Below, piece by piece: positions 25,868-59,119 of a DNA stretch of 64,000 nt. Both the position numbers and the translations under genes were made by a program. Origin of the DNA: Rhodospirillaceae bacterium (GTDB lineage: Bacteria; Pseudomonadota; Alphaproteobacteria; Rhodospirillales; JABHCV01); the NCBI GenBank assembly GCA_014382375.1, contig JACNJU010000119.1:1-64000 (forward strand), in the 5' to 3' direction. Under the pieces are notes generated by a model that had not been told where the DNA came from, made no database searches, and worked only from the letters and a program-made list of their open reading frames with translations. The stretch's first letter is position 1, and each line of letters starts with the position of its first letter.

Positions 25868-26692
25868 TCAAGAATGCTGTTCAAGGCGTCGATTATAAAG
25901 CTGCAGGATCTTTGCTGAAACTTCTTCAATGGATTTTCGGGTGACATCAATGACCGGCCAACCCTGGCTCGTATAAAGGCGCTTTGCTTCCTTGACCTCT
26001 CTGGTAACCGTTTCGGGATCAATGTAATCAGTTTCTTCGTCCTGACCGAGTGAACGCAAGCGATTACGACGGATTTGCACCAATTGCCGAGGATCGTTTG
26101 TCAGACCGACCACCAGCGGTTTTTTTGACTGCATCAATTCTGGGGGCAGGGCGCAGCCAGGAACAATGGGAACATTGGCGGCTTTCAGGCCCCTGTTGGC
26201 AAGATAAATACAAGTCGGTGTTTTGGAGGTTCTGGAAACCCCGACGATGATCACATCGGCCTCGTTGAGCGAGCGGGTCGCCTGGCCATCATCATGACTA
26301 AGGACAAAATGCAGGGCCTCGATACGGGAAAAATATTCCGCGTCCATCACGTGTTGACGACCGGGGGCAGCGCGAATTTCCGCCTTAAGGTATGATCCCA
26401 GTGCACTGACCACTGGGTCAAGAATGGGAATACAGGGGACTTTTAATTCCCGACAGCTGTTTTCCAACAGGTTCCGCATTTCATTATCGACAAGGGTATA
26501 AAGTACAAATCCGGGATTTTCCTTAACACCCTCAATAATATCCCTGATCTGGCTTTCGCTGCGGACCATATTCCAGACATGTTTCGTTTGTTCTATGTTA
26601 TCGAACTGTACCAAAGAGGCCCGCGCAACCAGATTAACAGTTTCGCCTGTGGCGTCTGAAACCAGATGTAAGTGGAAGTGTTTACTGACCAT
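25868..26692 (-). CDS. ppsR: Pyruvate, water dikinase regulatory (PPSR, DUF299) protein
   Basis: PPSR proteins are bifunctional kinase/pyrophosphorylases acting on PEP synthetase (or PPDK). This 274-residue protein starts MVSKHFHLHLVSDATGETVN, and contains the P-loop-like IVGVSRTSKTPTCIYLANRG. In Caulobacter and Rickettsia its homologue (RP001) flanks the chromosome origin opposite hemE, the same layout as here. Its start borders the 510-base AT-rich gap. Confidence 0.95.
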   Translation of the reverse strand: MVSKHFHLHLVSDATGETVNLVARASLVQFDNIEQTKHVWNMVRSESQIRDIIEGVKENPGFVLYTLVDNEMRNLLENSCRELKVPCIPILDPVVSALGSYLKAEIRAAPGRQHVMDAEYFSRIEALHFVLSHDDGQATRSLNEADVIIVGVSRTSKTPTCIYLANRGLKAANVPIVPGCALPPELMQSKKPLVVGLTNDPRQLVQIRRNRLRSLGQDEETDYIDPETVTREVKEAKRLYTSQGWPVIDVTRKSIEEVSAKILQLYNRRLEQHS

Positions 26693-26742
26693 CAATCGCT
26701 CTTTCCGGCGCTTCCCAGCGTGTTTATTCCATCAACAGACAC

Positions 26743-26751
26743 TGGGGATAG
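26743..26751 (-). promoter_or_regulatory. DnaA-box-like motif CTATCCCCA
   Basis: On the minus strand the bases read CTATCCCCA, two differences from TTATCCACA. It belongs to the cluster of similar motifs in the ppsR-hemE gap. Confidence 0.45.
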
Positions 26752-26889
26752 AATGTGTGTATCTCAGACAATTTACAAAAGTGATCTTTCCATCCCCGAA
26801 CCACTTGTTTTCATGCCATTACTCATACCATGGATTTTCTGTTTTCCATGATAGGGGAATACACCGGAAAATCTATCAAACCAAATTTG

Positions 26890-26898
26890 TTTTCCACT
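26890..26898 (+). promoter_or_regulatory. DnaA-box-like motif TTTTCCACT
   Basis: The bases read TTTTCCACT, one difference from the TTWTNCACA consensus. It lies next to an A/T-rich stretch (26898-26923) in the presumed origin. Confidence 0.5.
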
Positions 26899-26923
26899 CT
26901 ATTAATATATTTATCAATTTTTT

Positions 26924-26932
26924 CTATCCCCG
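26924..26932 (+). promoter_or_regulatory. DnaA-box-like motif CTATCCCCG
   Basis: The bases read CTATCCCCG, directly after an A/T-rich stretch. It is weaker on its own but shares the TATCCCC core with the other motifs of the gap. Confidence 0.35.
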
Positions 26933-27034
26933 TTTCGTTATCTGATCAGGCGACAAAAAAAGATATACAAGGCTTCAAGGAAAGCACAAATTGTCAAAGT
27001 GTAACCATTTATGATTGTCCCCGTTACCAACATT

Positions 27035-27043
27035 TTATCCCCA
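27035..27043 (+). promoter_or_regulatory. DnaA-box-like motif TTATCCCCA
   Basis: The bases read TTATCCCCA, one difference from the E. coli consensus TTATCCACA. It is the best match in the gap and lies about 100 bases from the A/T tract next to hemE. Confidence 0.55.
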
Positions 27044-27102
27044 AATACCGGATTCTCTTTCACTCCCGATAACGACATTGGGGGAAACTTGTTGAAAAGA
27101 AA

Positions 27103-27111
27103 TAATCCCCA
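27103..27111 (+). promoter_or_regulatory. DnaA-box-like motif TAATCCCCA
   Basis: The bases read TAATCCCCA, two differences from TTATCCACA. It lies 30 bases before the A/T tract at 27141-27170. Confidence 0.4.
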
Positions 27112-27202
27112 TCTTTAAGGCCACTACAACAACTACTACCTTTTTATATAAAATATATATTTTAGGTATATGAGAAGAGTGATCTCGGTTACCTTCCCGA
27201 CC

Positions 27203-28243
27203 ATGGATACAAAAAATAAATATTTTCTGCGTGCCCTGAAGGGTGAGAGTTTAATCCGGCCACCATTTTGGCTCATGCGCCAAGCTGGTCGTTATCTGCC
27301 CGAATATCGGGAATTGCGACAGAAATCAAAAAACTTTCTGGATTTTTGTTATTCGCCGGATCTGGCTGTCGAAGCGACCTTGCAGCCTCTCAGGCGGTAT
27401 GACTTTGATGCGGCGATATTGTTCAGTGATATTCTGGTAATTCCAGACGCGCTTGGTCAAAAAGTTGAATTTCGTGAAGGTGAGGGGCCGGTCCTTGAGC
27501 CTGTCAGGTCGATTGATGATGTAGACAAATTGTCGCTGGATGGATTGCATGATCATCTGGCGCCGGTTTATCAGACTGTCAGTCGGTTATCTTCCGAAAT
27601 TCCTCAACAAACCGCACTCATCGGTTTTGCCGGGGCGCCGTGGACGGTGGCCACCTACATGGTCGAGGGCAAAGGATCGAAGGACTATGCGCGAGCCCGA
27701 ACTTGGGCTTATGCAGATCCGGAAGGTTTTGGTAAACTTATTGATCTTCTTGTCGAAGCAACGACGGCTTACCTGATTAAACAGATTGAGAACGGTGCCG
27801 AAGTCATTCAGCTTTTTGATACCTGGGCAGGGGTTTTAAGTGAAAACCAGTTTCAGCGTTGGGTCATCCAGCCGACAGTTGAAATTGTTAAAAGACTGAA
27901 TAAAGCCTGTCCCGGTGTACCGATTCTCGGGTTCCCGCGTGGCGCTGGAATCCTCTATCAGGATTTTGTCAAACAAACGGGTGTTGACGGCGTCAGCCTT
28001 GATAACAGTGTTCCGGTCAGTTGGGCGGCGGAACATTTGCAGCCCCTGTGCACGGTCCAGGGTAACCTGGACAACATGGCCCTGATTGCCGGTGGTGAGG
28101 CTATGGAAAACGAAATTCGCGCCATCCTTGAAGGTTTTGCAGGCGGTCCGCATATCTTCAATCTGGGTCACGGTATTTTGCCCGAAACACCGCCCGAACA
28201 TGTTGAGCGCCTGGCCGCCCTCATTCAGGGCTGGGAAAGTTGA
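27203..28243 (+). CDS. hemE: Uroporphyrinogen decarboxylase
   Basis: HemE removes four carboxyls from uroporphyrinogen III. Signatures [18 protein letters not shown] and [16 protein letters not shown] are present, with catalytic Asp in [13 protein letters not shown]. The ATG at 27203 ([12 protein letters not shown]) matches family length at 346 residues; an earlier ATG at 27170 adds 11 non-conserved residues. It is the first gene to the right of the presumed origin and leads hemH and hemJ, so three late heme steps are clustered. Confidence 0.97.
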
Positions 28244-37160: not shown

Positions 37161-37176
37161 TGTTTCACGTGAAACA
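37161..37176. promoter_or_regulatory. parS: parS centromere site
   Basis: TGTTTCACGTGAAACA is a perfect 16-base palindrome and exactly the chromosomal ParB-binding consensus. It lies in the 159-base mnmE-mnmG gap, about 3.5 kb upstream of parB and about 10 kb from the presumed origin. The surrounding bases hold no gene. Confidence 0.95.
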
Positions 37177-39122: not shown

Positions 39123-39742
39123 TGTTTCACGTGAAACAATTTCAGGAATTGACCGGCGTCACGGCAGAAACCCTGGGCCGCCTACAGCTTTATGCAGATT
39201 TATTGGAAAAATGGCAGAAGAAGATCAATCTTGTCGGTCCGGCAACCGTACCCGACTTGTGGCAACGACACATGCTTGATTCGGCGCAGCTGTTGCCGCT
39301 GCTCCCGAAGCCGGATTGCCGGATTATGGATTTTGGCAGCGGTGCTGGCTTTCCGGGCCTGGTGTTGGCGATTATGGGCGGCCCCCTGGTGACGCTGGTG
39401 GAAAGTGACGGGCGAAAGTGCGCCTTTCTGGCCGAGGCCATGCGGGTGACCGGGACGGGCGCATCGGCGCGCCTTGAAAACCGCCGCATCGAAGAGGTGC
39501 CGCCGATGTCCGTCGATGTCGTCACGGCGCGGGCTTTGGCGCCTTTGGACAAGTTGTTGGATTTGGCCGAGCCGTTTCTTGGGGCGGGTTCAATTTGTTT
39601 GTTTCTGAAGGGCAAAAAGGCCGATCAGGAATTGACCCAAACAACGAAAAACTGGATGATGCAGGTGTCTAAAATCCAGAGCCAAACGGATCCTTCCGGG
39701 ACGATCCTCAAATTGGAAAATGTAGCAAGGGGCACGCGCTGA
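39122..39742 (+). CDS. rsmG: 16S rRNA (guanine527-N7)-methyltransferase
   Basis: RsmG (GidB) methylates G527 of 16S rRNA, and its loss gives low-level streptomycin resistance. The SAM-binding FGSGAGFPGLVLAI and ESDGRKCAFLAEA motifs are present; length 206. The first codons ATG-TTT-CAC-GTG-AAA-CA encode MFHVKQ and contain a perfect parS site, so the start of this gene doubles as a centromere element. Confidence 0.97.
   Translation: MFHVKQFQELTGVTAETLGRLQLYADLLEKWQKKINLVGPATVPDLWQRHMLDSAQLLPLLPKPDCRIMDFGSGAGFPGLVLAIMGGPLVTLVESDGRKCAFLAEAMRVTGTGASARLENRRIEEVPPMSVDVVTARALAPLDKLLDLAEPFLGAGSICLFLKGKKADQELTQTTKNWMMQVSKIQSQTDPSGTILKLENVARGTR
39123..39138. promoter_or_regulatory. parS: parS centromere site within the start of rsmG
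   Basis: TGTTTCACGTGAAACA is again a perfect parS palindrome, starting at the second base of the rsmG initiation codon. It is about 0.6 kb upstream of parA. With the site at 37161 it brackets mnmG. Confidence 0.95.
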
Positions 39743-39746
39743 CATC

Positions 39747-40610
39747 ATGGCTGAAAACACGGTGAAAGCCCCCTCATTGGCCGAGCCCCCTCCTTTGGGG
39801 TGGCATGGTGGCAAGACGCGCATTATCGCCGTTGCCAATCAAAAGGGCGGTGTCGGCAAGACGACGACGGCGATAAATCTGGCGACGGCCCTTGCGGCGG
39901 TCAAAAAGAAGGTCCTGCTTATTGACCTTGATCCGCAAGGCAATGCCAGTACGGGATTGGGAATCAGCCACGAGGCCCGCGTCCGCAACACCTACCAGGT
40001 GGTGATGGAGCAAATCACCCTCGCCGAAGCAATCCAGCCGACGGATATTCCCGGCCTTGATATTGTCCCTTCGGGGATGGATTTGAGCGGTGCCGAGATT
40101 GAGCTGGTTGATGTCGAGGAGCGTGAATTCTGCCTTCGTCGGGCGTTGGCACCAGTCGCCGATGAGGGAGGAGAGAACGGCCTTTATGATTATGTCCTGA
40201 TTGATAGCCCGCCCGCCCTGGGCCTGCTGACGATCAACGCCCTGACCGCGGCACAGGCGGTGCTGGTGCCACTGCAGTGTGAATTTTTCGCCCTTGAAGG
40301 GATCAGCCACCTGATGAAATCAATTGAGCGCATACGTAATGGCTTTAATCCAGAGCTGGAACTACAGGGTATTGTCCTGACCATGTTTGACAAGCGCAAC
40401 AATCTGTCCGATCAGGTTGCCAGCGATGTCCGTGAATTTTTTGGTGACAAGGTCTACAACACGGTGATACCGCGCAATGTCCGCATATCGGAGGCCCCAT
40501 CCTACGGGCGCCCGGTTCTTGTTTATGATCTGGCCTGTGCCGGCTCCCAGGCTTATCTGCATTTGGCTGGCGAAGTGATCAGACGCGAGCGTAAGGAGCA
40601 GGCTAAATGA
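39747..40610 (+). CDS. parA: Chromosome-partitioning ATPase ParA
   Basis: ParA is a deviant-Walker ATPase that moves ParB-parS complexes to the cell poles. The Walker A box NQKGGVGKTTT (residues 31-41), Walker B DLDPQGNASTGLG, and the dimer contact LIDSPPALGLLT are intact. About 23 residues precede the fold (MAENTVKAPSLAEPPPL). Its start is 4 bases after rsmG and its stop overlaps parB. Confidence 0.98.
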   Translation: MAENTVKAPSLAEPPPLGWHGGKTRIIAVANQKGGVGKTTTAINLATALAAVKKKVLLIDLDPQGNASTGLGISHEARVRNTYQVVMEQITLAEAIQPTDIPGLDIVPSGMDLSGAEIELVDVEEREFCLRRALAPVADEGGENGLYDYVLIDSPPALGLLTINALTAAQAVLVPLQCEFFALEGISHLMKSIERIRNGFNPELELQGIVLTMFDKRNNLSDQVASDVREFFGDKVYNTVIPRNVRISEAPSYGRPVLVYDLACAGSQAYLHLAGEVIRRERKEQAK

Positions 40611-41572
40611 CCCCGCCGGAAGATAAAAAACGCAAACTCGGACGCGGACTGTCAGCATTGCTGGGTAATGGCGGCGAAGATTATGCGGCCCTCGACAAGG
40701 TTCGCTCGACCAAGACCGTTGCCATTGAATTTCTGCAGCCGGGCAAGTATCAGCCGCGTCATATTATGGACGACGAGCAGATTGGGGAGTTGAGCCGTTC
40801 GATTGCCGAAAAAGGTATCCTGCAGCCCTTGCTGGTGCGCCGCCTGAGTGACACCGAGGGGCCAAACGCATATGAAATCATTGCCGGTGAGCGACGCTGG
40901 CGAGCCGCGCAACGTGCCAAGTTGCATGAAGTACCAGTGATCATCAAGGACCTGAACGATCAGGAGACCCTGGAAATCGCACTGGTCGAAAATCTGCAAC
41001 GTCAGGACCTGTCGCCACTTGAGGAGGCAGAGGGCTATCAGCGCCTGATGGACGAGTTCACCCATACCCAGGAAGACCTGGCCAAGGCCATGGGCAAAAG
41101 CCGCAGTCATGTCGCCAACACCATGCGGCTTTTGGGGCTGCCTGACGCGCTTAAGGCGATGATCGATACGGGCCAGCTGAGTGCCGGTCACGGACGCGCT
41201 CTTTTAACCGCAAACGACCCCGCGGCATTGGCAAAAACTGTTTTAAAACAAGGGCTTAACGTTCGCCAAACAGAACAGTTGGTAAAAAAGGAAAATTCTG
41301 GCGGCAGCAAATCTGCAGCCCGGCCCGCCACCAAAGATCCCGATACTCTGGCCCTTGAGCGGGACATGTCGGACCTGCTTGGCCTGAAAGTCGATATTCG
41401 TTTTAAAAACGGTCATGGTTCGCTGACCGTTTATTACAGCGATTTGGCCCAGCTTGATGATGTGCTTGCCCGCCTTAGCCATAAACAAAAACGGCTACTG
41501 GGTGGTGACGCGCACGTCGATGATCTGGGTGTTATCCGTGACGCCGAAATTACCGGCGACGGCAGCAGCTGA
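40607..41572 (+). CDS. parB: Chromosome-partitioning protein ParB
   Basis: ParB binds parS and spreads on DNA as a CTP-dependent clamp. The CTP-binding motif GERRWRA (residues 94-100), N-terminal QYQPR-type KYQPRHIM, and the parS-recognising helix-turn-helix TQEDLAKAMGKSRSHVANTMRLL are intact. The C-terminal dimer domain follows a short linker rich in Gly/Ser/Ala. It overlaps parA by four bases and converges with holA. Confidence 0.98.
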   Translation: MTPPEDKKRKLGRGLSALLGNGGEDYAALDKVRSTKTVAIEFLQPGKYQPRHIMDDEQIGELSRSIAEKGILQPLLVRRLSDTEGPNAYEIIAGERRWRAAQRAKLHEVPVIIKDLNDQETLEIALVENLQRQDLSPLEEAEGYQRLMDEFTHTQEDLAKAMGKSRSHVANTMRLLGLPDALKAMIDTGQLSAGHGRALLTANDPAALAKTVLKQGLNVRQTEQLVKKENSGGSKSAARPATKDPDTLALERDMSDLLGLKVDIRFKNGHGSLTVYYSDLAQLDDVLARLSHKQKRLLGGDAHVDDLGVIRDAEITGDGSS

Positions 41573-52384: not shown

Positions 52385-54671
52385 TCTCCATGCGTTCGAT
52401 GATCCGGGCTGCCCGGTTATAACCTATTTGCAGGTGACGTTGAATAAAACTTGTTGATGCCTTGCCTTCGCGGGCAATCAGCGCCACCGCTTCATCGTAA
52501 AGCTCATCGCCGGAAGGCTTGCCGGAGCCGCTCAGGCCAATGTTATCGATAGCAATTTCTTCGGTGACGTCGTCCAGATACTCTGGCGTGCCCTGGGCTT
52601 TAAGGAAACTGACCACATGCTCGACTTCCTCGTCGGAGACAAAAGGCCCGTGGACGCGGGTGATTTGCCCGCCGCCCGCCATATACAACATATCACCCTG
52701 GCCGAGCAGTTGTTCGGCACCTTGTTCACCGAGGATTGTCCGGCTGTCAATTTTTGAGGTCACCTGGAAACTGATACGGGTCGGGAAGTTGGCCTTGATG
52801 GTGCCGGTGATGACATCGACTGACGGGCGCTGGGTCGCCATGATCATGTGGATACCGGCGGCCCGGGCCATTTGCGCCAGCCGCTGGACTGCGGCCTCGA
52901 CATCCTTGCCGGCGACCAGCATCAGGTCGGCCATTTCATCGATAACGACGACGATAAACGGCAAGGGTTCCATTGAAAGGGGCTGGTCTTCCATCACCGG
53001 CCTGCCATCGGCGTCGAAACCTGTTTGCACGCGCCGGGTCAGGGTTTCGCCTTTTTTTGTCGCCTCGCTCAAACGGGCGTTGTATCCGGCAATGTTGCGA
53101 ACGCCCAGTTGTGACATGGCGCGGTAGCGCTCTTCCATTTCCCGAACCGCCCACTTCAACGCGACCACCGCCTTCGAGGGATCGGTGACGACGGGGGTCA
53201 ACAGATGAGGAATGCCCTCGTAGACGGAAAGCTCGAGCATCTTCGGGTCGATCATGATGAATTTGCATTGGTCCGGGGGCAACTGGTAAAGCAGGGACAG
53301 GATCATCGTATTGATGCCGACGGATTTACCCGAACCGGTGGTGCCTGCAATCAGCAGATGCGGCATACGCGCCAGATCAACGGTTACCGGCAGGCCGCCG
53401 ATGTCCTTGCCAAGGGCCAGGTTGAGCTTGCCGGGAGCGCGCTCAAACGGGTCAGAGGTTAAGAGCTCGCGCTGGTAAACCATTTCACGCTCAACATTGG
53501 GCAGCTCGATACCAATGACGTTGCGGCCCGGCACAACAGCGACGCGCACCGACACGGCGCTCATGGAGCGGGCAATGTCGTCGCTCAGGCCTATGACCCG
53601 GGATGTCTTGGTGCCCGGCGCGGGGGAAAGCTCGTACAGGGTGACAACTGGGCCGGGGCGGACCTTGATGATGTCGCCGCGAACACCAAAATCGTCGAGA
53701 ACCGTTTCCAGCAAGCGGGCGTTTTGTTGCAGGGCGTCCTTGTTGACCCTGGTGGCCTCCGTCGTCTCGGGCGGTGATTCGAGCAGATCATGGGGCGGCA
53801 ATTCGAACTCTTCGCCGGGAATAAGATCAAGGGTACGCTGACGTTTAGCGCTGGCTTTGCGGCCGGTCTTTGGTTTTGCTGCTTTTTGGGAAACGGCTGG
53901 CGGTGTTGATTTCCTGGCCGCCACACGCGGGTTTGTCGCCGTTCGTTTTGTCGTTGCCGGGCCAGCATCAGTGGCGGTGTGCGGGGCTATCATAGGCAGC
54001 AAGCGGAGCGCGCCGCGCCGCAACAGGCGCCAGCCGCGCAGGGTAGCGCTTAGCAGCCAGCTTCCGGTTTGTCGCCATTCCTGGGAGCTTAAGCCAAGCA
54101 CGGTGACCAGCGAGGCGGCGGCAGGCAGGGACAGAAACAGCCCCAGCATCCAGCCTTCGATGGCGGCGTTAAAGCCAAAACCTGTGGCGGCAGCATTCAG
54201 TAAGCCGGTTGAGCGCTCCAGCAATACCGAACCAATAACCCCGCCAAGGCGTGTCGCCAGTGGCCAGCCACCGGGGGCTGGCAGCGCGGCCAGGCTCATT
54301 GAGATTAAAATAAGGGCGAACAAAAACAGACAAATCCGCGCCCAAATTAGACGGGGCGGGTTTTTACGAATGGTTTGTATACCCCAGACGGTGAGCACCA
54401 CTGCCGGTGTGATCCCGGCTAACCCTAAGGACTGTAACAGCAAGTCGGCCAAATAAGAGCCGCCCAAACCAAGCAGGTTTATGGGTCCACCATCCGAAGC
54501 ACTGTTGAGCGAAGGATCTCCCGGCGCGTACGAGAACAGGGCGGCCAGGATCAACAGGCCGCTTAAGGAAAGGGCGAGGCCGATGATTTCACTAAATCGC
54601 CGTCTCAAAAACGCACTTACGCTTTCGGGCAGGATCGACGGGGTGCCAGTATTGGTCAAGGTTCTAGCCAT
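52305..54671 (-). CDS. ftsK: DNA translocase FtsK
   Basis: FtsK sits at the division septum and pumps DNA toward dif for chromosome resolution. About four hydrophobic segments span residues 25-190, then a basic linker (about 225-290), the motor with Walker A AGTTGSGKSVGIN and Walker B FIVVVIDEMADLMLVAGK, and the C-terminal gamma winged-helix domain (STSFIQRHLQIGYNRAARIIERMESEGVV) that reads KOPS. Length 788 is normal. Confidence 0.97.
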   Translation of the reverse strand: MARTLTNTGTPSILPESVSAFLRRRFSEIIGLALSLSGLLILAALFSYAPGDPSLNSASDGGPINLLGLGGSYLADLLLQSLGLAGITPAVVLTVWGIQTIRKNPPRLIWARICLFLFALILISMSLAALPAPGGWPLATRLGGVIGSVLLERSTGLLNAAATGFGFNAAIEGWMLGLFLSLPAAASLVTVLGLSSQEWRQTGSWLLSATLRGWRLLRRGALRLLPMIAPHTATDAGPATTKRTATNPRVAARKSTPPAVSQKAAKPKTGRKASAKRQRTLDLIPGEEFELPPHDLLESPPETTEATRVNKDALQQNARLLETVLDDFGVRGDIIKVRPGPVVTLYELSPAPGTKTSRVIGLSDDIARSMSAVSVRVAVVPGRNVIGIELPNVEREMVYQRELLTSDPFERAPGKLNLALGKDIGGLPVTVDLARMPHLLIAGTTGSGKSVGINTMILSLLYQLPPDQCKFIMIDPKMLELSVYEGIPHLLTPVVTDPSKAVVALKWAVREMEERYRAMSQLGVRNIAGYNARLSEATKKGETLTRRVQTGFDADGRPVMEDQPLSMEPLPFIVVVIDEMADLMLVAGKDVEAAVQRLAQMARAAGIHMIMATQRPSVDVITGTIKANFPTRISFQVTSKIDSRTILGEQGAEQLLGQGDMLYMAGGGQITRVHGPFVSDEEVEHVVSFLKAQGTPEYLDDVTEEIAIDNIGLSGSGKPSGDELYDEAVALIAREGKASTSFIQRHLQIGYNRAARIIERMESEGVVSKANRVGRREVLIGEVGETVL

Positions 54672-54706
54672 ACCCTAAGTTCTACGACACCAATGTTTAC
54701 AAGACC

Positions 54707-55906
54707 TTAACGAAGAACCTTGAGAATCCCCTGAAAGGCTGTTTTGGTCACATCGGGGGGGTGAACCAGGGCGACCCGGATGTAGTCGTCACCGGGATTT
54801 GTGCCGTCCGCCTCCACCCTTGATATATAGGCGCCGGGCAACACTCTTATACCGGCCTCCGCCCATAATCGCCTGGCCGCCTCCTCGCCGCCACCGTAGG
54901 CCGAGACATCAAGCCACAGGAAAAATCCGCCAGCCGGGCGTTTATAACCGTAACGTCCCCCGAGAAGCTGATCGGCAAGATCAAACTTTTGCCGGTATAG
55001 GGCACGGTTTTTCTCAACGTGTGCCTCATCGCGCCATAAAGCGCTCGACGCGGCCATGATCGGCATCGGCATGGTTGCCCCTGCAAAACTGCGCAAATGT
55101 TTGAAGCGCCTGATCAGCGTTGCGTCGCCAGCGATAAAGCCGGAGCGCAGGCCCGGCGCACTGGAGCGCTTGGACAGGGAATGGAAAATCACCACATTGT
55201 CCATGCTGCCCGTGTTTTCGCAGACCCCGGCCCCGCCGGGCGGCGGCTGGTCACTGTAAATTTCGCTATAGCATTCATCAATGGCGAGCACGAAGTCATG
55301 CTTGCGGGCCAGGGAAATGGCGCGCTCAAGATAAGCGACGTCAGCTACAGCGCCTTGCGGGTTGGCTGGTGAGCACAGGGTCATAAGCGCCGTACGGCCG
55401 AGTGTTTGCTCGTCAAGGGCATCAAGATCGGGCAGATAGCCGCTGCCCCGGGTCGCGGCCATGGTGATGGCTTCGCCGCCGGACATTTCAGCGGCCCCCG
55501 AATAGACATGATAGAGCGGATTGGGGAACAGCACCGCCGGGCGCGGCTCCTTTTGGCGGCCATCGACAGCTAGCATGGCGATCAGATAAAGCGCCTCGCG
55601 GGTGCCGACGACGGGCAGGATTTGCAGGTCCGGATCGATAAAGCCGCCAGCCAGATGGTAGCGCCGGGCCAGCCACTGGGCGATGGCGGTACGAAAATCA
55701 GCGGTTCCATCAATTGGCGGATAGCGGCCCCACAAGTCATTGCTGGCGCTTAGGGCCTCGTCGATCAGCTTCGGCGGGGTATGCCTGGGCTCGCCAATGG
55801 ACAAGGCCAGCGGACTGATCCCGGCAGGCGGCGACAAGGGATCCAGCAGATCACGCAGACGATCGAAGGGGTAGTCGGTTAGGTTGTCGAGCAGAGAGTT
55901 TAACAT
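54707..55906 (-). CDS. Class I/II aminotransferase, DapC-like
   Basis: The 399-residue protein is a fold-type I PLP enzyme; the PLP lysine is in FHSLSKRSSAPGLRSGF, and CSPANPQGAV (NPQG variant of NPTG) and AIDECYSEIY are present. Its closest known family is the succinyldiaminopimelate aminotransferase type (DapC) of lysine/peptidoglycan synthesis. It starts 22 bases after the amt stop on the same strand, so it could be partly read from the amt promoter. Confidence 0.85.
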   Translation of the reverse strand: MLNSLLDNLTDYPFDRLRDLLDPLSPPAGISPLALSIGEPRHTPPKLIDEALSASNDLWGRYPPIDGTADFRTAIAQWLARRYHLAGGFIDPDLQILPVVGTREALYLIAMLAVDGRQKEPRPAVLFPNPLYHVYSGAAEMSGGEAITMAATRGSGYLPDLDALDEQTLGRTALMTLCSPANPQGAVADVAYLERAISLARKHDFVLAIDECYSEIYSDQPPPGGAGVCENTGSMDNVVIFHSLSKRSSAPGLRSGFIAGDATLIRRFKHLRSFAGATMPMPIMAASSALWRDEAHVEKNRALYRQKFDLADQLLGGRYGYKRPAGGFFLWLDVSAYGGGEEAARRLWAEAGIRVLPGAYISRVEADGTNPGDDYIRVALVHPPDVTKTAFQGILKVLR

Positions 55907-55928
55907 GCAGGGACAATAGCCTAATTTT

Positions 55929-57158
55929 CTAACCCTTCACATCATCCTCTGGATAAGCGCCAATCTGGTGCAGGGAAAGGTCGGCTCCCAGGAATTCCTC
56001 TTCCTCGCTCAAGCGAATGCCGATACTGGCTTTCAGGCCACCGTAAACCACAAAACCTGAAACGGCGGCAAAAGCGACACCAACAAGACTGCCAACCAGT
56101 TGCGCCATGAAACTGACCCCACCCAGACCACCAAAGGCTTCCAGGCCGAAGATACCGGCGGCGATACCGCCCCACAGCCCGCACATGCCGTGCAGGGGCC
56201 AGACACCAAGCACATCGTCAATTTTCCAGCGGCTCTGGCATTGATTGAAGCCCCAGACAAATAACGCCCCGGCGGCAGCCCCGACAAACAGCGCACCGAC
56301 GGGATGGATAATGTCGGATCCGGCACACACGGCGACCAGACCGGCCAGCGCCCCGTTATGAACAAAGCCCGGATCATTGCGCCCGACGACGACGGCGGCG
56401 AGGATACCGCCGACCATGGCCATCAGCGAATTCATGGCGACTAGACCGCTGACCCCTTCAAGGCTTTGCGCGCTCATCACATTAAAGCCGAACCAGCCGA
56501 CAGACAGGATCCACGAGCCAAGGGCAAGGAAGGGAATGCTTGAAGGCGGAATGCCAACCATTCTGCCGTCTTTTCGATAGCGCCCCATACGGGCCCCCAG
56601 CATGATCACGGCACCGAGCGCCATCCAGCCGCCAACCGCGTGAACAACAATGGATCCGGCGAAATCGTGGAAGCCGAAACCAAAGGCAGCGGCGATCATG
56701 TCCTGAAAGCCAAACTTGGAACCCCAGACCATGCCTTCAAATGTCGGGTAGACGATGCCGACGATTATGGCGGTAGCGGCGAGTTGTGGCCAGAACTTGG
56801 CGCGTTCGGCGATACCGCCGGAAATAATCGCCGGGATCGCTGCGGCAAAGGTCATAAGGAAAAAGAATTTCACCAGATCATAGCCACTGGCGGCAAACGC
56901 GTAGCCTTCACCTGCGCCGCCGATCAAGTCCTTGGCGCTGTAGAGGAAGTTGACGCCGTAGGCGACCATATAGCCGATGAAAAAGTAAACAACGGTCGAC
57001 ATCGCCAGGTCGACGATGATTTTAACCAGGGCGTTGACCTGATTTTTGCGACGCACGGTGCCGACTTCAAGAAAAGCGAAGCCTGCGTGCATTGCCAGCA
57101 CCATGACCGCCCCGAGGAGCACGAAAAAGACATCCGCACCCGATTTGATTGCTTCCAT
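55929..57158 (-). CDS. amt: Ammonium transporter (Amt family), second copy
   Basis: This 409-residue protein has eleven membrane spans starting GADVFFVLLGAVMVLAMHAGFAFLEVGTVRRKNQ, and the Amt/MEP signature with conserved His residues (DFAGSIVVHAVGGWMALGAV and CPLHG-type WPLHGMCGLWGG). It lacks the cleavable signal peptide seen in the paralogue. It has its own sigma-54 promoter (57218-57232) and no PII gene beside it. Confidence 0.96.
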   Translation of the reverse strand: MEAIKSGADVFFVLLGAVMVLAMHAGFAFLEVGTVRRKNQVNALVKIIVDLAMSTVVYFFIGYMVAYGVNFLYSAKDLIGGAGEGYAFAASGYDLVKFFFLMTFAAAIPAIISGGIAERAKFWPQLAATAIIVGIVYPTFEGMVWGSKFGFQDMIAAAFGFGFHDFAGSIVVHAVGGWMALGAVIMLGARMGRYRKDGRMVGIPPSSIPFLALGSWILSVGWFGFNVMSAQSLEGVSGLVAMNSLMAMVGGILAAVVVGRNDPGFVHNGALAGLVAVCAGSDIIHPVGALFVGAAAGALFVWGFNQCQSRWKIDDVLGVWPLHGMCGLWGGIAAGIFGLEAFGGLGGVSFMAQLVGSLVGVAFAAVSGFVVYGGLKASIGIRLSEEEEFLGADLSLHQIGAYPEDDVKG

Positions 57159-57217
57159 TCTCTCTTCTCCCCCGGGAAATGTGGCCAGCCAAAATTACTA
57201 TTCTGCGCGCAAAGACT

Positions 57218-57232
57218 ACAAGAACCGTGCCA
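57218..57232 (-). promoter_or_regulatory. Sigma-54 promoter for amt
   Basis: On the minus strand: TGGCAC-GGTTC-TTGT, matching the -24/-12 consensus TGGCACG-N4-TTGC except the last base. It lies 60 bases upstream of the amt ATG. With the matching element before glnK it ties both ammonium transporters to RpoN, normally with NtrC. Confidence 0.7.
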
Positions 57233-57365
57233 ACCCACAGACAAAGCCCTGTAGCCCTTGTGGGGCAAGGGAAAGGTCACACAAAAGGCAATTTCATTTC
57301 AAGGTCGAAACGGGGCAAATTGCTGAAAATTAGGGCAGCTGTCGAAGCCATGGGTAAAATTTAAG

Positions 57366-57402
57366 CAAAACGCGGCCCGCAAGGTCTTCACCTTACGGGC
57401 CG
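57366..57402 (-). terminator. Rho-independent terminator after glnK-amtB
   Basis: CGGCCCG-c-AAGG and CCTT-a-CGGGCCG (57373-57384 and 57391-57402) form an 11-pair stem with one mismatch and a TCTTCA-type loop; on the minus strand it is followed by a T-rich run. It separates glnK-amtB from the second amt and its promoter. Confidence 0.75.
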
Positions 57403-57432
57403 TGTGATCTTTGGCAGGGTCAGTGGGGAGTG

Positions 57433-58764
57433 TTAGAGGGACTGGGAACCCCTGCCAAATTCCGGATAAGCCTCCATGCCCAGTTCGGCCTGATCGAGGC
57501 CCAGCATTTCGTCTTCTTCGCTGACCCGGATGCCGACGGTGAATTTGAGCGCCAGCCAGGCAATGGTAGAGGCGACAATGACGAAGCCACCGATGGCGAC
57601 AACACCTGTTATTTGGGCCGCAAAGCTGGCATCGGCATTGGTTAGCGGTACCGCCAGCGTGCCCCAGATACCAGCGCCCAGGTGAGCCGGAATGGCACCA
57701 ACCACGTCGTCGATCTTGAACTTGTCAAGCAACGGCACCAGGAAAACGACAAGAGCGCCACCGACCGCGCCAATAAGTAACGCCTGCCCCATGGCCGGGC
57801 TGTCGGGACCTGCGGTGATCGAGACCAGCCCGGCGATAGCGCCGTTCAGGGCCATGGAAAGATCAACCTTTTTGTAGACAAGCTGGGTCAGCACCATTGC
57901 CGCCAGGACGCCACCGACTGCGGCGATGTTGGTGTTGATGTAGATGGTCGAGATAGCGATGGCATCCGCAGCGCTGGCCAGGGCCAGTTGCGAGCCACCG
58001 TTAAAGCCAAACCAGCCAAGCCACAGGATGAAGGTTCCAAGCGTCGCCAGCGGCAAATTTGCGCCGGGTAACGGGTGGATGCCACCAGATGTGTACTTGC
58101 CTTTGCGGGCACCGAGAATGAGAGCGCCTGTGAGGGCCGCCCAGCCACCGACAGAGTGAACCAGTGTCGAGCCTGCAAAGTCAGAAAAACCGGCTTCGGA
58201 CAACCAGCCGCCGCCCCATTGCCAGGCCCCCTGAATGGGATAAATGACGGCCGTCAGGATGACGACGAAAGCCAGGAACGGCCACAACTTGATACGCTCA
58301 GCCAACGTGCCTGAGACGATTGAGGCGGCGGTGGCGACAAACACCATCTGGAAAAACCAGTCGGATTCGGCGGCGTAACCACCGTCGAAGTTTCCGGCCA
58401 AAGCGTCGGCGTTGTCACCGCCCCAGATTTGGAAACTACCCATATAACCGCCATCAACACCGGCATACATCAGGTTGTAACCGATGATATAAAAGGTCAG
58501 CCCGGCGATGGAATAAAGGGCGATGTTTTTAAGACAGATGGTGGCAGTGTTCTTGGAGCGCACCAGTCCTGATTCCAGCATGGCGAAACCAGCGGCCATA
58601 AACATCACCAAGAAGCCGTGAACCAGAAACGAGAATGTATTGAGAATATACTGGGTTTCAGTGAGCTCTCCGGCGGTGGCTGAAGAAGCGGTGAAAATTG
58701 CAAGCCCCGTGGCGGTCATCGCGGCAACAGCGCCAAGGCGTCTTTTGTTTTTCTGAATATTCAT
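57433..58764 (-). CDS. amtB: Ammonium transporter AmtB with signal peptide
   Basis: The ATG at 58764 gives MNIQKNKRRLGAVAAMTATGLAIFTASSATAG, a cleavable signal peptide followed by eleven membrane spans with the Amt signature (LVHGFLVMFMAAGFAMLESGLVRSKN and DFAGSTLVHSVGGWAALTGAL). It is preceded by glnK 16 bases upstream, the classic pair in which GlnK docks to AmtB and closes it. 443 residues. Upstream residues in the open frame are glnK sequence. Confidence 0.97.
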   Translation of the reverse strand: MNIQKNKRRLGAVAAMTATGLAIFTASSATAGELTETQYILNTFSFLVHGFLVMFMAAGFAMLESGLVRSKNTATICLKNIALYSIAGLTFYIIGYNLMYAGVDGGYMGSFQIWGGDNADALAGNFDGGYAAESDWFFQMVFVATAASIVSGTLAERIKLWPFLAFVVILTAVIYPIQGAWQWGGGWLSEAGFSDFAGSTLVHSVGGWAALTGALILGARKGKYTSGGIHPLPGANLPLATLGTFILWLGWFGFNGGSQLALASAADAIAISTIYINTNIAAVGGVLAAMVLTQLVYKKVDLSMALNGAIAGLVSITAGPDSPAMGQALLIGAVGGALVVFLVPLLDKFKIDDVVGAIPAHLGAGIWGTLAVPLTNADASFAAQITGVVAIGGFVIVASTIAWLALKFTVGIRVSEEDEMLGLDQAELGMEAYPEFGRGSQSL

Positions 58765-58780
58765 TGAATTTATCCTTTGC

Positions 58781-59119
58781 CTACAGGGCTTCGTTGTCTG
58801 TTTCGCCGGTCCGGATGCGGATCGCCGATGAAATGTCGTAGACGAAAATCTTGCCATCGCCGATTTTGCCGGTTTCGGCGGTTGTCTTGATGGCCTCGAC
58901 AATGGTTTCGACCATGTCGTCTTTGGCGGCGATTTCCAGTTTCACCTTGGGCAGAAAGTGAACGGTGTACTCTGCTCCGCGATAGATTTCGGCATGTCCT
59001 TTTTGCCGGCCAAAGCCTTTGACTTCGCTTACCGTCATGCCCTCGACGCCAAGGTCCGAGAGGACCGCCCGCACATCGTCGAGCTTGAAAGGTTTGATAA
59101 CTGCCATGATCAGCTTCAT
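58781..59119 (-). CDS. glnK: PII nitrogen-regulatory protein GlnK
   Basis: The 112-residue PII protein has the T-loop GHAEIYRGAEYTVHFLPK with uridylylation site Tyr51, and the B-loop GKIGDGKIFV. It senses nitrogen and energy and gates AmtB. ATG 59119 (MKLIMAVIKPFKLDDV) is the canonical start. A sigma-54 promoter (59234-59248) lies 115 bases upstream. Confidence 0.97.
   Translation of the reverse strand: MKLIMAVIKPFKLDDVRAVLSDLGVEGMTVSEVKGFGRQKGHAEIYRGAEYTVHFLPKVKLEIAAKDDMVETIVEAIKTTAETGKIGDGKIFVYDISSAIRIRTGETDNEAL

Follow-up and report, generated by a model that had tools for sequence, protein, structure and literature searches.

Immediately upstream of hemE, in an AT-rich gap that is almost certainly the chromosomal origin of replication of this bacterium (putative as regards initiation in vivo), we identified a weak DnaA box, a short spacer, a run of six C-N-A triplets, and an A/T tract. 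The run of 5'-CHA-3' triplets (3'-GDT-5' on the opposite strand) is found class-wide and, by sequence, resembles a variant of the DnaA-trio that breaks the main sequence rule of that element. The origin as such is unremarkable, and the interest lies in the variant trio shared across the class; our literature search, confined to freely accessible article texts, found no publication on trios in Alphaproteobacteria. The features of the gap and its flanks, numbered within the window (the whole 64-kb stretch of DNA that was analyzed), are as follows.

25868 to 26695, minus strand: ppsR (PEP synthase/PPDK regulator, COG1806/DUF299), left flank (NCBIfam NF003742, E 3e-103; PRK05339)
26693 to 27202, no strand: putative oriC, AT-rich noncoding gap between divergent ppsR and hemE (open reading frames, composition, skew, synteny)
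26743 to 26751, minus strand: weak DnaA box CTATCCCCA, W-type (PWM scan)
26890 to 26898, plus strand: DnaA-box-like TTTTCCACT (PWM scan; conserved in the alignment as TTTTCC[AC]C)
26924 to 26932, plus strand: weak DnaA box CTATCCCCG, W-type (PWM scan)
27015 to 27023, plus strand: weak DnaA box TTGTCCCCG, W-type (PWM scan)
27035 to 27043, plus strand: DnaA box TTATCCCCA, W-type, best full-length match (motif counts, PWM scan)
27079 to 27087, minus strand: weak box TTTCCCCCA (PWM scan)
27090 to 27098, minus strand: DnaA-box-like TTTTCAACA, inverted beside box A, TGTGGATAA in many relatives (alignment, PWM scan)
27103 to 27111, plus strand: box A, TAATCCCCA, W-type, nearest the triplets (class-wide conservation; motif in ~91% of 164 gaps)
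27112 to 27120, plus strand: spacer or degenerate box B, here TCTTTAAGG, TTATNCACA in most of the class (alignment, EM motifs)
27121 to 27138, plus strand: six C-N-A triplets, CCA CTA CAA CAA CTA CTA, DnaA-trio-like (alignment, motif searches)
27141 to 27170, no strand: A/T tract, putative DNA unwinding element (sequence, alignment)
27170 to 28243, plus strand: hemE (uroporphyrinogen decarboxylase), right flank (TIGR01464, E 4e-124)

The gap measures 510 bp from ATG to ATG (26693 to 27202), and its G+C content is 36.9% over 474 bp (26695 to 27170), compared to ~55% in the surroundings. ppsR, which reads leftward, starts at ATG 26692 or, alternatively, at TTG 26695; for hemE, comparison with relatives points to ATG 27203 as the likely start, with the in-frame ATG 27170 as the alternative. 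The preliminary description had reported an AT-rich, gene-free gap between outward-pointing ppsR and hemE, with an A/T tract at 27141 to 27170; coordinates, G+C content, and NCBIfam names all agree with this, and the tract is present.

We assign oriC to this gap, as that description had done, because the skew minimum, a skew flip in a relative, class-wide synteny, and a conserved noncoding module agree. The cumulative G-C minimum of the window lies at 27,140, inside the gap, and the contrast in skew between left and right was reached by only ~5e-5 of 1-kb-block permutations of the window. Since the source genome is a 205-contig draft (3.3 Mb), chromosome-wide skew was read in relatives, namely, G020, a complete genome from the same order, of which 43 sampling points covered ~22%, and G029, a near-complete genome sampled at ~8%. 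In G020, samples between 1.53 and 3.41 Mb showed a negative skew, and those from ~3.42 Mb onward around the chromosome to 1.43 Mb showed a positive one; the sign changed at ppsR/hemE (3.42 Mb) and on about the opposite side, at ~1.43 Mb, such that the GC-skew check came out in favor of the gap both in the window and at the same gene pair in this relative. The more sparsely sampled G029 gave a noisier skew with broadly the same sign pattern. Of 118 loci taken from across the order and class, 101 had a divergent ppsR-hemE pair, as did 66 of the 80 loci of a second, named set. As dnaA is located ~410 kb from the gap in G020, 118 kb from it in G029, and on a different contig in the source genome, the origin is not adjacent to dnaA. 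Finally, a member of the same genus (G002; locus L009) has lost ppsR, with no match anywhere in its genome and with aroE as the new neighbor; since a 552-bp gap (25% G+C) with its triplet run is nevertheless retained upstream of hemE, the gap appears to be maintained for its own sake.

The neighborhood is that of Cori, the experimentally studied origin of Caulobacter crescentus, which, as the preliminary description had stated, sits between hemE and COG1806 (PMC1914354). Cori shares with the present gap (as do the Rickettsia and Wolbachia origins) the hemE/COG1806 (ppsR) surroundings and, furthermore, an AT-rich gap of ~400 to 500 bp, few perfect DnaA boxes, and TCCCCA W-boxes (PMC4285127, PMC4468827, PMC1914354); both the hemE/COG1806 position and the GC-skew minimum that mark a Cori-type origin were found here. 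Unlike Cori, the gap contains neither a TTAA-N7-TTAA CtrA site nor a TGATCCACA G-box. This CtrA site was absent from the entire 64-kb window and occurred at most once in the few class loci having any; CtrA sites are a Caulobacter trait and are not general in the class (PMC4468827).

Partition functions had been noted 10 to 14 kb away, and parA, parB, and two perfect parS sites were indeed found at 10 to 14.4 kb.

37161 to 37176, plus strand: parS TGTTTCACGTGAAACA, perfect (motif scan)
39123 to 39138, plus strand: parS TGTTTCACGTGAAACA, perfect (motif scan), within the first codons of rsmG
39747 to 40610, plus strand: parA (ParA-family ATPase matches under the named equivalog cutoffs; assigned by position ahead of parB)
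40607 to 41572, plus strand: parB (TIGR00180, over the cutoff)

The two parS sites, 10 to 12 kb from the gap, were the sole matches at three or fewer mismatches, and parAB lies 12.5 to 14.4 kb from the gap. The site at 39123 to 39138 makes up the opening codons of rsmG (gidB), and the one at 37161 to 37176 is located directly upstream of mnmG. Elsewhere in the window, a strong AT skew (up to 0.23) extends over positions 54000 to 59000, across an aminotransferase gene and two adjacent ammonium transporter genes by ftsK, all on the minus strand.

The preliminary description made no mention of the module that borders the A/T tract on its left side. In an alignment of relatives, including those of the genus, the best-conserved part of the gap was its right end, consisting of TAATCCCCA, a short spacer, CCACTACAACAACTACTA, and the A/T tract, in that order. 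A PWM for the box pair and trio scored 34.1 here, compared to 11.9 for the next-best position in the 64-kb window, and the pattern ATCCCC-N6..22-(CHA)4C occurs a single time in the 3.3-Mb genome (27105 to 27133). In relatives with a match, the pattern was mostly found directly upstream of hemE; matches away from the origin numbered one each in G002 (within hemH) and G033, plus an additional one in G038. In four other loci (L008, L013, L016, and L018), an inverted box-like TGGGATAAC, not seen in the window, lies past the A/T tract and faces the triplets. A hairpin in the A/T tract was considered and rejected: single loci look palindromic, but class-wide folding did not surpass that of a control region (mean z, -0.21 versus -0.15).

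Conservation across the class was assessed by expectation-maximization (EM) motif discovery, with no motif given, on 164 nonredundant alphaproteobacterial gaps. The best 24-bp motif, TAATCCCC-[GA]-N-TTATTCACAGG, was present in ~91% of these, and EM on the 55 bp to the right of it returned a period-3 motif, (CHA)n, with C in 88 to 97% at most repeats, followed by A, T, or C, not G, and then by A in ~64 to 89%. When all triplet patterns were compared with dinucleotide shuffles, CNA and its rotations were the most enriched (0.82 versus 0.65), ahead of CTA; an early automatic trio scorer that demanded a middle T overlooked most loci. Where the run was clear (107 gaps), the box strand had T as the middle base 174 times, A 122 times, C 71 times, and G 0 times, the last count being partly by construction, since these gaps were chosen with the learned motif, which already disfavored G; the independent evidence for avoidance of G is the EM result. 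At least three consecutive canonical middles were present in 9 of the 107. Judged from these sequences, then, the middle base of the alphaproteobacterial triplet appears to be free, except that G is avoided on the box strand, unlike that of the B. subtilis trio.

The module was also found at loci of Nitrospirillum, Parvibaculum, Tagaea, Telmatospirillum, and others. It was not seen at the corresponding place in Devosia, in Halovulum, or at one Caulobacteraceae locus, and some alphaproteobacterial families showed no clear triplet run upstream of hemE; the origins of families without the module at this position may be organized differently. Two such families (f152 and f153) have large genomes and a DnaA that is 40 to 47% identical to the source DnaA. 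In an outgroup of 40 other Pseudomonadota, the stretch taken upstream of dnaA gave no clear trio signal; as their origin may lie outside this stretch, the result has no bearing on the trio code.

Box-bound B. subtilis DnaA extends as a single-strand filament, with one trinucleotide per subunit, and thereby opens the duplex (PMC8287927, PMC6669920, PMC10721633). The basal unwinding system (BUS) of that organism consists of one or more DnaA boxes, a short spacer, at least three triplets, and an A/T tract, with the order of elements and the box orientation found here (PMC8287927, PMC10721633). However, its trio reads 3'-GAT-5', with a middle A, whereas ours reads 3'-G(A/T/G)T-5', and the boxes differ as well, with a W-type box A and a degenerate box B here. 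The middle A matters in B. subtilis, where a middle T or G impairs opening and C is tolerated (PMC10721633). The published search rule calls for a DnaA box with at most two mismatches to TTATCCACA, 0 to 16 bp from the trios (PMC8287927); TAATCCCCA has two mismatches and is located 9 bp from the first triplet, and the A/T-rich stretch at 27141 to 27170 adjoins the triplets. The strand opposite 27121 to 27138 reads 3'-GGT GAT GTT GTT GAT GAT-5', in which the longest run of middle-A trios is two, and the run therefore fails the published search rule, which asks for at least three in succession.

By analogy with the BUS, we infer DnaA binding, strand choice, and trio function, and the triplets at 27121 to 27138 probably act as DnaA-trios, a function that stays putative because their middle base departs from the B. 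subtilis rule. DnaA would load on the scattered weak W-type boxes and on box A (27103 to 27111), from which a DnaA-ATP filament would grow rightward across the C-N-A triplets (27121 to 27138), gripping the 3'-GDT-5' strand. This filament would then melt the adjoining A/T tract, where the helicase would be loaded.

Three other readings were weighed. That these are real DnaA-trios with the filament on the box strand (3'-CAH-5', with a conserved middle A), so that the B. subtilis capture rule is kept and polarity is reversed, seems unlikely. In the alphaproteobacterial motif, conservation of the A in NAC is strong (64 to 89%), and a conserved middle A is the B. subtilis rule (PMC8287927, PMC10721633), but the B. 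subtilis complex proceeds 3' to 5' from co-oriented boxes; since boxes A and B are oriented likewise, the filament is expected on the other strand. Still less probable is the idea that the triplets and A/T tract form the hemE promoter or 5' leader, with the origin using the other boxes only. Although the module ends ~35 to 60 bp ahead of the hemE start, and hemE transcription is linked to replication in Caulobacter (PMC8959179), promoters do not feature period-3 C-H-A runs tied to a pair of DnaA boxes, no part of the gap is better conserved in the genus than the module, which coincides with the skew minimum, and no Rfam family matched within positions 26000 to 28000.

The third reading concerns the boxes themselves. 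TATCCCC-type motifs are favored in the gap, as the preliminary description had noticed: TATCCCC occurs 3 times (0.05 expected from the window rate), TNTCCCC 5 times (0.18 expected), and ATCCCC 5 times (0.19 expected), and TTATCCACA is absent from the entire 64-kb window. In addition, most aligned relatives carry an inverted TGGGGATA-type box near the ppsR end. The cluster includes TCCCCA W-boxes, as does Cori, and TCCCCA is a known weak site of Caulobacter DnaA (PMC4285127, PMC4468827), so the proposed variant box was already known; what our data add to the Caulobacter W-boxes is a class-wide pattern in which the box closest to the triplets is W-type, with C at position 7 of box A in 83% of the 164 gaps. 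The further suggestion that DnaA here may prefer a variant box, i.e., that the DnaA in this lineage has an altered specificity in which TATCCCC replaces TATCCACA, is very doubtful despite the missing TTATCCACA and the position 7 C, given that the DnaA recognition motif, RDHTTV, is the same as in the other Pseudomonadota examined, that box B in the same class retains TTATNCACA, that the gap of the congener G002, whose DnaA is 83% identical to the source DnaA, carries TTATCCACA, TTATCCACT, and TTTTCCACA, and that TCCCCA is such a weak site. Use of weak sites, rather than altered DnaA specificity, appears to be the better reading of these sequences.

Returning to the variant trio, we asked which DnaA residues accompany it. 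Positions 187, 202, and 228 were placed by means of what we take to be the B. subtilis DnaA sequence. The placement fits the residues named in PMC10721633, according to which Asn187 reads the middle A of the trio. The source DnaA has Tyr (Tyr213 in its own numbering) for Asn187 and Lys for Arg202 and keeps Glu228. Lys at the 202 equivalent is common to Alphaproteobacteria and other Pseudomonadota, whereas Tyr at the 187 equivalent was found in 64 of 79 alphaproteobacterial DnaA proteins but in none of the 40 sequences from other Pseudomonadota, where the position is occupied by Ala, Thr, Gln, Ser, Asn, or Gly. Within the class, an aromatic residue 187 went with a trio in 46 of 52 genomes and another residue in 2 of 3 (Fisher P = 0.34), a comparison with too few nonaromatic genomes and between genomes that are not phylogenetically independent. 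Among extra divergent families, V and S lineages had degenerate triplets, and W and some Y lineages had no module upstream of hemE. We hypothesize that Tyr187 may account for the relaxed middle base.

The main published trio search required a middle A and found no trio in 15% of genomes, for which its authors suspected deviant trios (PMC8287927). For such deviant trios, the class-wide 5'-CHA-3' run beside a DnaA box offers a concrete candidate. A middle T or G, which impairs opening in B. subtilis (PMC10721633), is yet common here, making the reading of the trio testable across a whole class. We speculate, tentatively and with the odds somewhat against it, that Alphaproteobacteria may use a different single-strand opening code, in which DnaA does not read the center of a 3'-GDT-5' trio as A and carries an aromatic residue, Tyr, at the Asn187 position, such that trio and initiator would have diverged together.
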